A DNA stretch of 64,000 nucleotides from Haloarchaeobius sp. HME9146. Lineage in GTDB: Archaea > Halobacteriota > Halobacteria > Halobacteriales > Natrialbaceae. Below the pieces are notes generated by a model, which had not been told where the DNA came from, searched no databases, and saw only the letters and a list, made by a program, of their open reading frames with translations. The translations under genes and the position numbers were made by a program. The DNA lies in the NCBI RefSeq assembly GCF_025399835.1, contig NZ_JAODVR010000001.1:310001-374000 (forward strand), in the 5' to 3' direction. Below are positions 37,831-42,073 of the stretch, piece by piece (the first letter of the stretch is position 1; every line of letters begins with the position of its first letter).

Positions 37831-37889
37831 GTCCTGCGGCGGCGCTCCCGGCGGGACAGCCACCACGGCGCGTGCAATCTTTGCCACCT

Positions 37890-37897
37890 ATATAATC
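37890..37897. promoter_or_regulatory. TATA-like element at the 5' edge of the amt1 control region
   Basis: TATATAAT lies 60 nt after the blue-copper gene and 340 nt before amt1. It could drive a long amt1 leader transcript or be part of the blue-copper terminator region. Confidence 0.25.
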
Positions 37898-37965
37898 GCA
37901 GTAGGGCGTCGACCCGGTCGTGCGCGACCATCTCGCATGGGACGGACCATCAGGGTTCTACATTG

Positions 37966-38086
37966 TGGACAGTCGTCCGGGAATAGGATGGACAGCTGCC
38001 CTGTTTCTGGACACTAAACAACCTTATATTGACTTCATTCGATTTTAATTTGGACATACGACCATTAGGCCCGAGAATTATGGACA
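37966..38086 (+). promoter_or_regulatory. Array of five TGGACA elements upstream of amt1
   Basis: TGGACA occurs at 37966, 37989, 38008, 38051 and 38081, all on the plus strand within 121 bp. Three are extended to TGGACA-x-(T/A)CG-x: 37966 (TGGACAGTCGTCC), 38051 (TGGACATACGACC) and 38081 (TGGACACTCGTC). One copy would rarely be expected by chance in a gap this size. This looks like a multi-site binding region for a nitrogen-responsive regulator. The factor is not known to me. Confidence 0.55.
38018..38061 (+). promoter_or_regulatory. 44-bp block shared with the amt2 upstream region
   Basis: This block aligns without gaps to 40201-40244. Identical parts are ACAACCTTA at the start, CGATT-x-TAATTTGGACA, and CGA at the end. 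It contains the TATA-like CTTATATT (38023-38030) and one TGGACA element. It is the best candidate for the core promoter and operator common to both ammonium transporter genes. Confidence 0.6.
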
Positions 38087-38152
38087 CTCGTCAACGCCAA
38101 CTACTAAATAGTAATCTCTCTACGCCATCGACCGGAGAAAACAGTCACAAAC

Positions 38153-38233
38153 ATGGTCGAAATAGCTGAAAACGTGGACGGTTGTATGGGTGTATCGGGT
38201 ATCGGTAACGGGTTCGGTGGGGTGAACTGCTGA
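38153..38233 (+). CDS. Short upstream ORF overlapping the amt1 start (26 codons)
   Basis: The frame MVEIAENVDGCMGVSGIGNG ends in VNC-stop with the stop TGA sharing its last base with the amt1 ATG (TGATG). A Shine-Dalgarno-like GGTGGGGTGA lies just before the overlap. Nothing in the peptide suggests a function. It may be a leader peptide that couples ribosomes into amt1. Whether it is translated is not known; amt2 has a similarly placed, unrelated ORF. Confidence 0.35.
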   Translation: MVEIAENVDGCMGVSGIGNGFGGVNC

Positions 38234-39657
38234 TGTTGCCGCTACAGGCGGATGCGGCGGCGATCGCGAACAGCATCAACTACGTGTGGATTCTCGTGGT
38301 GTCGTTCCTCATCTTCTTCATGCAGCCGGGCTTCGCGCTGCTGGAGGCGGGGCAGGTCCGCGCGAAGAACGTGGGTAACGTCCTGATGAAGAACATGACC
38401 GACTGGGGCCTGGGGGTCCTGGTCTACTTCATCGTGGGGGCGGGCGTCGCCGGCATCGTCGGCAGCCTGACTTCCTCGAGCGCACTCGACATCATGGGTG
38501 CGTTCTCGTACATCGGTGAACCCGGCGCGACCGGGTGGATCGACTGGGTGTTCGGCGCGGTGTTCGCCATGACGGCGGCCACCATCGTCTCCGGGGCAGT
38601 CGCGGAACGCATGGACTTCCGTGCGTACGTGGTCTTCGCCGGAGTCATCACGGGCATCATCTACCCGGTCGTCCAGGGCCTGACCTGGTCCGGCGGCCTC
38701 CTCGCCGGCTCGGGCTACCTCGGTAGCGCACTCGGCGTCGGCTACATGGACTTCGCCGGTGCGACCGTCGTCCACATGGTGGGCGGCATCGCGGGTCTCG
38801 TCGCCGCGAAGATGGTCGGCCCGCGCAAGGGTCGCTTCGACGAGGACGGTAACAGCCAGCCCATCCCGGGCCACTCGATGCTCCTTGCCGTGCTCGGCAC
38901 GCTCATCCTGGCCTTCGGCTGGTACGGCTTCAACGTCGGCACGCAGGCGACGGTCCTCGCCGCTGCCGACGACGGCTCGCTGACCTTCATGGGCGCTGCA
39001 CTGGGACGCGTCGTGCTCGTCACCACGCTCGGCATGGGTGCCGGCGCGGTGGCCGCGATGATCGTCTCGACGCAGTGGCAGGGCAAGCCCGACCCGCTCT
39101 GGATGGCGAACGGTCTGCTGGCCGGTCTCGTGGCGGTCACGGGTGCGGTCCCGCACGTCACCTGGTGGGGCGGCCTCATCCTCGGTGCACTCGGCGGCGC
39201 AATCGTGCTGCCGGCGTACCGCTGGACGGTCGACTCGCTGAAGATCGACGACGTCTGTGGTGTCTTCGCGGTCCACGGCGCGGCCGGCGCGCTGGGGACG
39301 GTCCTCATCCCGGTGTTCGGCGCGTCCAGCTCGGGCGCGGCCATCCTGGGTGACGGCTACGCCTTCATGGGCGTGACCCAGCTCGTCATGCAGGTCCTCG
39401 GCGTCGCAATCATCGCGCTGTGGACGGTCGCGGCGACCGCGGTCACGTTCAAGGTGCTCGACGCGGTGTTCGGACTCCGCGTCTCCGAAGAGGAGGAACT
39501 CGCCGGCCTCGACGCTGGCGAACACGGCATCTCGACGTACCCCGAGTTCGTCGGCGACACCGGTCCCGACTCCGCCCGCGCCACGCTGACCACGGACGGC
39601 GGTGTCCGCACGGACGGTGGCGCTGTCGCGGAATCCGGAGGTGAGACCGATGACTGA
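38233..39657 (+). CDS. amt1: Ammonium transporter (Amt)
   Basis: The 474-residue integral membrane channel for ammonium has about eleven hydrophobic segments. It carries the conserved pore pair His181 ([10 protein letters not shown]) and His348 ([11 protein letters not shown]) and the signature [12 protein letters not shown]. The cytoplasmic tail is long and acidic (residues ~425-474). The ATG overlaps the short upstream ORF. glnK1 starts inside its 3' end, 8 nt before the stop, so Amt and PII are made together as in bacterial amtB-glnK operons, where PII plugs the channel from the cytoplasm when nitrogen is plentiful. Confidence 0.95.
39637..39644 (+). promoter_or_regulatory. Strong Shine-Dalgarno site for glnK1
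   Basis: GGAGGTGA inside the end of amt1, 5 nt before the glnK1 ATG, is a full match to the 16S rRNA anti-SD. It is unusual in a window where most genes look leaderless, and it explains efficient re-initiation of glnK1. Confidence 0.65.
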
Positions 39658-40012
39658 TGCGGTCGACACCGACATCAAGATGGTCGTCGCTATCATCCGG
39701 CCCGACCGCCTGACCGACGTCAAGCGGGCGCTGGCCGAGACGGGCGCGCCGTCACTGACCGTGACGGACGTCTCCGGTCGTGGCTCCCAGCCCGCCAAGA
39801 AGAGTCAGTGGCGTGGCGAGGAGTACGTCGTCGACCTCCACCAGAAGGTCAAAGTCGAGTGCGTCGTGGCCGACATCCCGGCTGAGGACGTCGTCGACGC
39901 CATCTCGGAGGCCGCACACACTGGTGAGAAGGGTGACGGCAAGATATTCGTCCTTCCCGTCGAGGGTGCCTACCAGGTCCGCACCGGGAAGGAGGGGGTG
40001 GAAGCAGTCTAG
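39650..40012 (+). CDS. glnK1: PII nitrogen regulatory protein (GlnK)
   Basis: The 120-residue cytoplasmic trimeric sensor of 2-oxoglutarate and ATP/ADP has the PII core: [33 protein letters not shown], the T-loop with Tyr59 in [16 protein letters not shown], and the nucleotide-binding [15 protein letters not shown]. The T-loop is shorter and Lys/Gln-rich compared with the E. coli protein, as in other haloarchaeal GlnKs. It is the natural partner of Amt1. It is highly similar to the PII domain fused to Amt2. Confidence 0.95.
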
Positions 40013-40200
40013 GCGGCGACTGGCAGCAGGTGCCGCCCTCCCTGTGCCACTCCGTTTCCGACGTCGGTCCCCTTTGAACCATCGCAGGCAACGCACCGCG
40101 GCCAGCGCGCGACATGGTGTTCGGCTCCGGTGCACTCCTCCATTCTGACACGACAAACGTAGTGTTCTGTGGCAACATTTGTCCAGACAGTGGCAACAAT

Positions 40201-40244
40201 ACAACCTTAAACAACCCTTATCCGATTATAATTTGGACAGTCGA
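40201..40244 (+). promoter_or_regulatory. 44-bp promoter block of amt2, shared with amt1
   Basis: This block matches 38018-38061 in length and in both ends. It contains ATTATAATTTGGACAGTCGA with a TATA-like core and a TGGACA element at 40234-40239. An inverted copy (TGTCCA) lies at 40180-40185 and a direct repeat GTGGCAACA at 40169-40177 and 40190-40198 (21 bp apart, two helical turns). The whole gap 40013-40325 holds no gene other than the short ORF that follows. Confidence 0.6.
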
Positions 40245-40325
40245 ACTAATACGCACGATAAATTAGACACTTGCAGTGCGCACCTTTATGTGATAAAGCA
40301 CCGTGAGCGTTTAACCGAAGTGAGC

Positions 40326-40412
40326 ATGACGAAATTCACGAATTACAGCCACTCGGTGAACGAACGTCCAGCAAGTATTGACTCGACGACGGAGGGAGCA
40401 GTATGGTACTGA
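40326..40412 (+). CDS. Short upstream ORF overlapping the amt2 start (28 codons)
   Basis: The frame begins [20 protein letters not shown] and ends in AVWY-stop; the stop lies 10 nt inside amt2. A strong Shine-Dalgarno GGAGGGAG (40391-40398) precedes the amt2 ATG. The peptide has no similarity to the short ORF before amt1, but the position is the same. Possible roles are translational coupling or a chance open frame. Confidence 0.3.
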
Positions 40413-42073
40413 CCCCCCTCCAGACCGACGTCGCCGCCCTCGCCGAAGGTATCAACCTGATGTGGGTGCTCGTCGTCACCTTCCTCATCTTCTTCATGCA
40501 CGCCGGCTTCGCCATGCTGGAGGCCGGGCAGGTGCGCTCGAAGAACGTCGCGAACCAGTTGACCAAGAACATGCTGACCTGGAGCGTCGGCGTGATGTTG
40601 TACTTCGCACTGGGTGCGGGTATCTCGACGCTCGTCGGACAGCTGACCGGTCCCGACCCGATGAACGTCGGCGGGGCGTTCGGCTACATCAACGGCGGCT
40701 CGGCCGGCTGGGTCAGCTGGCTGTTCGGCGCGGTGTTCGCCATGACGGCAGCGACCATCGTCTCCGGCGCGGTCGCGGGGCGTGCGAAGCTCCGTGCCTA
40801 CGTCGGCTACACCATCCTCCTCGCGGGCGTCATCTACCCCGTCGTGGTCGGGTTCACGTGGGGCGGCGGCATCCTCGCGCAACTCGGCTTCCACGACTTC
40901 GCGGGCGGCATGATCGTCCACGGGATGGGCGGCGTCGCCGGTCTCACCGCCGCGTGGGTCATCGGCCCGCGCATCGACCGCTACAACGCCGACGGCAGCA
41001 CGAACGTCATCCCGGGACACTCCCTGACGTTCGCCGTCCTCGGCACGCTCATCCTCGCGTTCGGCTGGTACGGCTTCAACGTCGGGACCGCCGCGACCGT
41101 GTTCTCACAGGAACAGGCCGATGCCGGCACCCTCGCCCTCGGTGCGTTCGATTACGTCGGGCGCGTCGCGCTCGTGACCACTCTCGGCATGACTTCGGGG
41201 GCCATCGGTGCGGCCGCCATCTCGCTCTACAAGACGCAGAAGGTCGACACCCTCTACGTCGCGAACGGCCTGCTCGCCGGTCTGGTGGGTATCACCGGCA
41301 TCGCCGACGCCATCGTCTGGCCCGGTGCCATCGCCGTCGGCCTCCTGGCCGGGGCACAGCTCCCCATCGTCTTCGAGTTCGTCGAGAAGCGCCTCAAGAT
41401 CGACGACGTGTGTGCGGTCTTCCCGGTCCACGGTTCGGCCGGTATCCTCGGCGCACTCGCGTTCCCGCTCGTCGCAGTCCCCGGTGCAGAAGCGAGCTTC
41501 GTCGCCCAGATCGCGGGCGTCGTACTCATCGTCGGCTGGACCGTCCTCGCGACGGCCCTCGTCTTCGGCGGTGCGAAGGCAATCGGTCAGGCTCGCGTCT
41601 CGGAAGCACACGAGCGTGAGGGCCTCGACGTCAGCGAACACGGCGTCGACACCTACCCCGAGTTCGGCCAGCCCGACGTGGTCACCGACGGCGGCATGGA
41701 CGTGTTCCGCACCGACGGCGGACACCCCGACGCCATCAAGATGGTCGTCGCGTACATCCGCCCGGACAAACTCGGTGACGTCAAGCAGTCCCTCGCGGCT
41801 GCCGGCGCGCCGTCGCTGACCGTGACGAACGTCTCCGGCCGCGGCTCCCAGCCCGCGAAGAAGGGCCAGTGGCGCGGCGAGGAGTACGTCGTCGACCTCC
41901 ACCAGAAGGTCAAGATCGAGACCGTCGTCGCCGACATCCCGGCCGACGACGTGGTCGAGGCCATCGCGGACGCGGCCCACACGGGCGAGAAGGGCGACGG
42001 GAAGATCTTCGTCACCCCCGTCGACGACGCCTACCAGGTCCGCACCGGCAACCGCGGCCCGGACGCGGTCTGA
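40403..42073 (+). CDS. amt2: Ammonium transporter fused to a C-terminal PII (GlnK) domain
   Basis: The 556-residue protein is a complete Amt channel (pore His173 in [10 protein letters not shown], His343 in [10 protein letters not shown]) whose cytoplasmic tail runs through [20 protein letters not shown] directly into a complete PII domain (~444-556: [21 protein letters not shown], Tyr495 in [20 protein letters not shown]). No stop or frame change separates the parts. Amt and PII are both trimers with PII docking on the cytoplasmic face, so the fusion is stoichiometrically and topologically sensible. The 3' end overlaps the antisense HEAT-protein gene by 43 bp. Internal initiation at Met432 is possible but has no Shine-Dalgarno. 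Confidence 0.93.

Follow-up and report, generated by a model that had tools for sequence, protein, structure and literature searches.

A conserved cis-element of nitrogen-assimilation genes in the amt1 gap of Haloarchaeobius, with an Lrp/AsnC protein as candidate reader

The gap upstream of the ammonium transporter gene amt1 in Haloarchaeobius sp. HME9146 almost certainly contains a cis-element of haloarchaeal nitrogen assimilation. Starting from a window of 64,000 nucleotides (the whole stretch of DNA analysed), we show that this element exists, is conserved and occurs at amt, nirA, nasA, narK, gltB, urease/urea-transporter (ure/urt) and one lrp gene. An Lrp/AsnC regulator is a candidate for its reader, favoured by gene neighbourhood and phylogeny somewhat above an even chance, and the element itself has apparently not been described so far. 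The switching of haloarchaeal nitrogen genes has been given as unknown, the bacterial NtrC/sigma-54 system being absent (PMC3831643). A precise cis-element common to uptake, nitrate/nitrite, urea and glutamate genes, together with one candidate protein, makes this question directly testable by ordinary Haloferax genetics.

The amt1 and amt2 gaps

The features of the window are as follows.

37966..37979, no strand: operator-like site 1 (TGGACAGTCGTCCG), 2 mismatches to TGGACGNNCGTCCA; TGGAC core kept in the closest relative, G003
37989..38002, plus: weak site 2 (TGGACAGCTGCCCT), 4 mismatches; TGGACG in G003
38006..38064, plus: conserved nitrogen block of amt1; profile R1, 46.6 bits, model positions 2-60
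38008..38013, plus: half-site B within the amt1 block, 14 bp before CCTTATA
38022..38028, plus: CCTTATA core of the amt1 block
38051..38064, no strand: operator-like site C (TGGACATACGACCA), 2 mismatches; 43 bp after site B
38081..38094, no strand: operator-like site E (TGGACACTCGTCAA), 2 mismatches; abuts the putative BRE
38092..38111, plus: putative amt1 core promoter, BRE-like CAACGCCAAC and TATA-like TACTAAATAG, predicted by reading the sequence
38153..38233, plus: short leader ORF, 26 aa; its TGA overlaps the amt1 ATG (TGATG)
38175..38188, no strand: sixth TGGAC site, inside the amt1 leader ORF (TGGACGGTTGTATG), 4 mismatches
38233..39657, plus: amt1, ammonium transporter (PF00909, E 6e-102)
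39650..40012, plus: glnK, PII protein (PF00543, E 4e-28)
40180..40185, minus: inverted TGGACA upstream of the amt2 block, conserved in G003
40191..40244, plus: conserved nitrogen block of amt2; R1, 33.5 bits
40320..40412, plus: short amt2 leader ORF, 30 aa, GTG start; extends 10 nt into amt2
40357..40370, no strand: palindrome within the amt2 leader, the best of both gaps (TGAACGAACGTCCA), 1 mismatch
40403..42073, plus: amt2, an ammonium transporter fused to a GlnK/PII domain (PF00909 plus PF00543)

An earlier note on this DNA had reported five TGGACA hexamers in one orientation upstream of amt1, far above random expectation, with one direct and one inverted copy in the amt2 gap. All of these were found: on the plus strand at 37966, 37989, 38008, 38051 and 38081 in the amt1 gap, and at 40234 (plus) and 40180 (inverted) in the amt2 gap. 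Four or more copies never occurred in 20,000 dinucleotide shuffles of the amt1 gap (37831-38232, 402 bp), which reached three at most. Since any 6-mer reached five copies in about 0.6% of 5,000 shuffles of this gap, the p-value of the TGGACA cluster corrected for looking elsewhere is about 0.006. Other 121-bp stretches of the window hold at most one TGGACA on the plus strand and two on the minus strand, and across the whole 64 kb the word is not enriched (22 copies against 22.6 expected). Thus, it is the clustering that is special and not the word itself.

Three of the five copies (37966, 38051 and 38081) belong to imperfect palindromes with two mismatches each to TGGACGNNCGTCCA. These had been overlooked, as had the sixth TGGAC at 38175 and the single-mismatch palindrome at 40357 in the amt2 leader. 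Of the five hexamers, three are each the left half of a 14-bp imperfect palindrome, one is a half-site before CCTTATA and one is a weak site.

The conserved unit

The closest congener (G003) has kept all five TGGAC cores, with G as the sixth base in three of them, and other congeners keep sites C and E as TGGACG while much of the remaining gap has diverged. The prevailing word across haloarchaea is TGGACG, half of the palindrome TGGACGNNCGTCCA. The proposal that TGGACA, or its extension TGGACANWCG, is the unit therefore did not hold, as the sixth base is free and relatives mostly carry TGGACG. A chance or local-duplication cluster without function would fit the fact that several relatives have no TGGACA itself in their amt1 gaps. 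However, shuffles do not reproduce the cluster, TGGAC cores persist in relatives while adjacent bases change, and matching sites appear as TGGACG throughout the class, so that this explanation is extremely improbable.

The comparison set comprised 77 collected amt loci and 92 non-redundant amt upstream regions, with dinucleotide shuffles as background. TGGACG was present in 71 of the 92 upstream regions (24 expected) and TGGACA in 42 (12 expected); ACGAACGT occurred in 45 (3 expected), ACCTTATA in 38 (0.6 expected) and GGAC-N4-GTCC in 15 (0.8 expected). GGAC/GTCC pairs favour the inverted N4 spacing of TGGACGNNCGTCCA. Several palindromic operator-like sites are clustered in each promoter, with preferred inter-site spacings of 43 bp (direct) and 28-30 bp (everted). 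Words of the TGGACG type also flank an AT-rich conserved block of about 45 bp (ACnnCCTTATAnnnnTAATATTCTA...TGGACGnnCGTC) that lies 180-207 bp before amt; a gap-free alignment anchored on CCTTATA resolves it as TGGACGAnnTACGACCTTATAT..TAATATTCTA..TA.TTTGGACGnnCGTC.

It could be argued that the CCTTATA block itself acts as a core promoter (BRE/TATA), the second and upstream one of a tandem promoter; the TGGACG operator 29 bp downstream of it would then lie at its start site, and the factor would be a repressor. ACnnCCTTATA does resemble the downstream BRE/TATA, and site C lies where the start site would fall. On the other hand, conservation extends beyond the TATA-like word (TAATATTCTA, positions 11-20) and exceeds what a promoter normally needs, and mutation of a nasABC promoter site decreases, rather than increases, expression. 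We consider such a tandem promoter unlikely.

Two candidate markers were rejected. TGGACANWCG, the form of the regulon motif suggested in the earlier note, gave 33 matches in a genome scan, most of them within genes, compared with 24 for its reversed form as control, and its intergenic matches near nitrogen genes in the HME9146 genome were confined to amt1 and amt2. The palindrome alone (at most one mismatch) gave 23 sites against 16 for its control, again mostly in genes. One perfect copy, TGGACGAACGTCCA, is intergenic and precedes nadE (NAD synthase, PF02540) by about 55 bp at locus L108 (G000:C1:57830-57843), and in Haladaptatus (L350) a block-bearing amt gene has a nadE-like gene as its divergent neighbour.

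Occurrence at other nitrogen genes

A sequence-only profile built from the amt blocks alone (R1) was run on the HME9146 genome and 40 relatives. It gave 26 matches at E<=0.052 in these 41 genomes, a threshold at which about two chance matches are expected. Twenty-five were placed: 18 at amt, three at nirA, two at nasA, one at gltB and one between ureB and a urea-transporter substrate-binding gene. The unplaced match (L146/L372) has a perfect palindrome, TGGACGTCCGTCCA, at L372 (G031:C26:136722-136755), with no clear nitrogen gene adjoining.

The nirA upstream regions, picked by gene and not by motif, served as a held-out test. The block (score above zero) was present in 19 of 23, always at -187 to -194, and in none of 399 non-nitrogen control upstreams (Fisher p 2e-29); this p-value overstates the evidence because the sequences are related, and the fixed place and gene specificity are independent of it. 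Five further 'controls' scoring above zero were set aside, having proved to be nirA or nasA upstreams. A second profile, R2, was built from amt plus nirA and run on 29 named genomes. Haloferax and Halogranum each yielded both nasA and nirA, Halohasta yielded nasA, three Halosimplex a NarK-type transporter gene, and Halorarius an Lrp/AsnC gene. Weaker matches (most above E of about 0.25, two below) precede unrelated genes and were not used.

In the HME9146 genome the block was found only at amt1 and amt2, profile matching giving none at its nirA or glnA. The earlier note had named glnA among the nitrogen genes that might carry the site; however, neither the palindrome (at most two mismatches) nor the block was present in any of 30 glnA upstreams, and glnA was rejected as a regulon member. 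For gltB, the block was present in one genome only and the palindrome in 24% of upstreams against 2% of shuffled ones, some start calls being unsure. The TGGACG palindrome is weakly represented at nirA promoters (17% against 5% shuffled), and the block and the palindrome may therefore have different protein readers. A UrtA family search, run at too strict a threshold, returned no matches.

The suggestion of an unrecognised nitrogen regulon motif thus survives in altered form: a larger block, and not TGGACANWCG, precedes nirA, nasA, narK, gltB, urease/urea-transporter genes and one Lrp gene in other haloarchaea. Since it also precedes nitrite, nitrate, urea and glutamate genes, nitrogen-uptake genes are probably switched jointly. 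A half-block (CCTTATATCGATTATATTCTATC) was also seen in Halorhabdus (L346, G093:C26:4062-4084), between a PhoU-like gene and a divergent lipoprotein gene. This lipoprotein resembles a phosphate-binding protein, which hints that the AT-rich core may be common to other starvation promoters.

Candidate regulator and proposed mechanism

NrpR was rejected as the regulator, as PF01995 is absent from the HME9146 genome and its genus (none of six, five congeners included). Further, it was missing from 29 of the 31 genomes searched, and the controls M. jannaschii and M. acetivorans both scored with this family.

Several observations point to an Lrp/AsnC protein as the likely reader. The gene order amt-glnK-lrp occurs in about 20 amt loci, sometimes with one Lrp for each amt-glnK pair; in several of these loci the Lrp is diverged. 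The amt-linked and glnA-linked Lrps form one group (support 99/97) that excludes ten other AsnC paralogs encoded by HME9146, which has the glnA-linked Lrp as its sole member of this group. In Halorarius litoreus (L333, G098:C1:2036928-2036972), an Lrp/AsnC gene beside amt-glnK carries its own nitrogen block (E 3e-4). When the Hfx. mediterranei nasABC promoter served as bait, the glnA-linked Lrp HFX_0246 was pulled down, and altering 5 nt in 'region 2' of this promoter abolished expression on nitrate (PMC8143581). Archaeal Lrp activators have clustered sites, often with one just upstream of the BRE (PMC2995911). The position of site E of amt1, which adjoins a predicted BRE in the genus and at several other loci, would agree with this arrangement. 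In Haloferax, amt/glnK transcripts increase under nitrogen limitation (PMC3831643; PMC6801745).

Counted against Lrp are the lack of the element at glnA, a gene whose promoter Lrp activates in Hbt. salinarum (PMC2894021), the different recognition-helix regions of the amt-linked and glnA-linked Lrps, and the restriction of the block to amt1 and amt2 in the HME9146 genome. The first two of these, and the lack of an Lrp beside amt at most loci, would favour a regulator outside the Lrp/AsnC family, for instance a haloarchaeal HTH protein not yet described, in which case the amt-linked Lrps would act elsewhere, for example by sensing glutamine for other targets. Set against this are the recurrent amt-glnK-lrp operons, the block found at one lrp gene and the pull-down reported for nasABC, and we judge a non-Lrp reader somewhat unlikely.

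The reading we prefer for the amt1 gap as a whole, and hold to be moderately probable, is a nitrogen cis-element read by an Lrp/AsnC protein of the glnA-linked clade. Upstream of a predicted BRE/TATA core promoter, the AT-rich block of about 45 bp (about -180 to -207) has imperfect palindromic operators (TGGACR-NN-CGTCCA) around and inside it, one operator abutting the BRE. A dimeric or multimeric Lrp would bind these sites cooperatively and, under nitrogen scarcity, recruit the basal machinery through contact with TBP/TFB at the core promoter. We infer the protein's identity, activation over repression, and the signal, which may be glutamine, 2-oxoglutarate or GlnK status. A wider proposal, to which we give about an even chance, is an undescribed global nitrogen regulon throughout the Halobacteria. 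It would comprise amt-glnK, nirA, nasA/narK, gltB, urea genes and its own Lrp, be marked by the block of about 45 bp and TGGACGNNCGTCCA operators, have Lrps of the glnA-linked clade replacing NrpR as its reader, and couple amt translation to the leader ORF.

Relation to known systems

The literature search found no description of the block or the palindrome, most subscription journals lying outside it. The NrpR regulon of methanogens similarly places amt/glnK and assimilation genes under archaeal control, but differs in its regulator, given the missing PF01995. The Ptr2 site is GGACGATTTTCGTCC, the halves of which resemble GGACG/CGTCC with a longer spacer. The archaeal Lrp/AsnC (feast/famine) regulons of Sa-Lrp (Sulfolobus), Ptr2 (M. 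jannaschii) and Lrp of Hbt. salinarum, as described in the available parts of the reports, resemble the present case in their clustered imperfect palindromes, one of them just upstream of the BRE (here a predicted one), and in their nitrogen and amino-acid gene targets (gltB, gdhA and glnA for Sa-Lrp), and differ from it in site sequence, the 45-bp block, its fixed place and the amt/nirA/nasA/urt targets (PMC3584215, PMC2995911, PMC2894021).

The nasABC 'region 2' and HFX_0246 of Hfx. mediterranei share the pathway, a required activator site and the Lrp clade with the present element; however, that work concerns a single promoter in a single species, with TAGAT as the site, and proposes no regulon element (PMC8143581). 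TAGAT was not found within the block in nine nasA promoters from Haloferax other than Hfx. mediterranei. The L-alanine/ammonium motif AAAGACTAART of Hfx. volcanii was likewise derived partly from amt1/amt2 promoters and is Lrp-linked, but it lies upstream of 492 genes and is unlike the block consensus in sequence (PMC6801745).

Leader ORFs

An ORF of 14-37 aa ending at the amt start codon stands before 79 of the 92 amt genes, with the frame almost always the same; shuffled sequences gave 29%. Both leader ORFs of the window (38153-38233 and 40320-40412) contain an operator-like site. Synonymous and nonsynonymous codon changes in these ORFs look near neutral and the amino-acid sequence seems weakly constrained, only the open frame seeming to be kept. 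A leader peptide acting as a functional product was rejected on these grounds, and the pattern of codon changes suggests that the ORF may instead serve translational coupling to amt. A block in Haladaptatus (L336, G100:C22:842909) precedes a free-standing 31-aa ORF that resembles the Halorussus amt leader peptide (L039).
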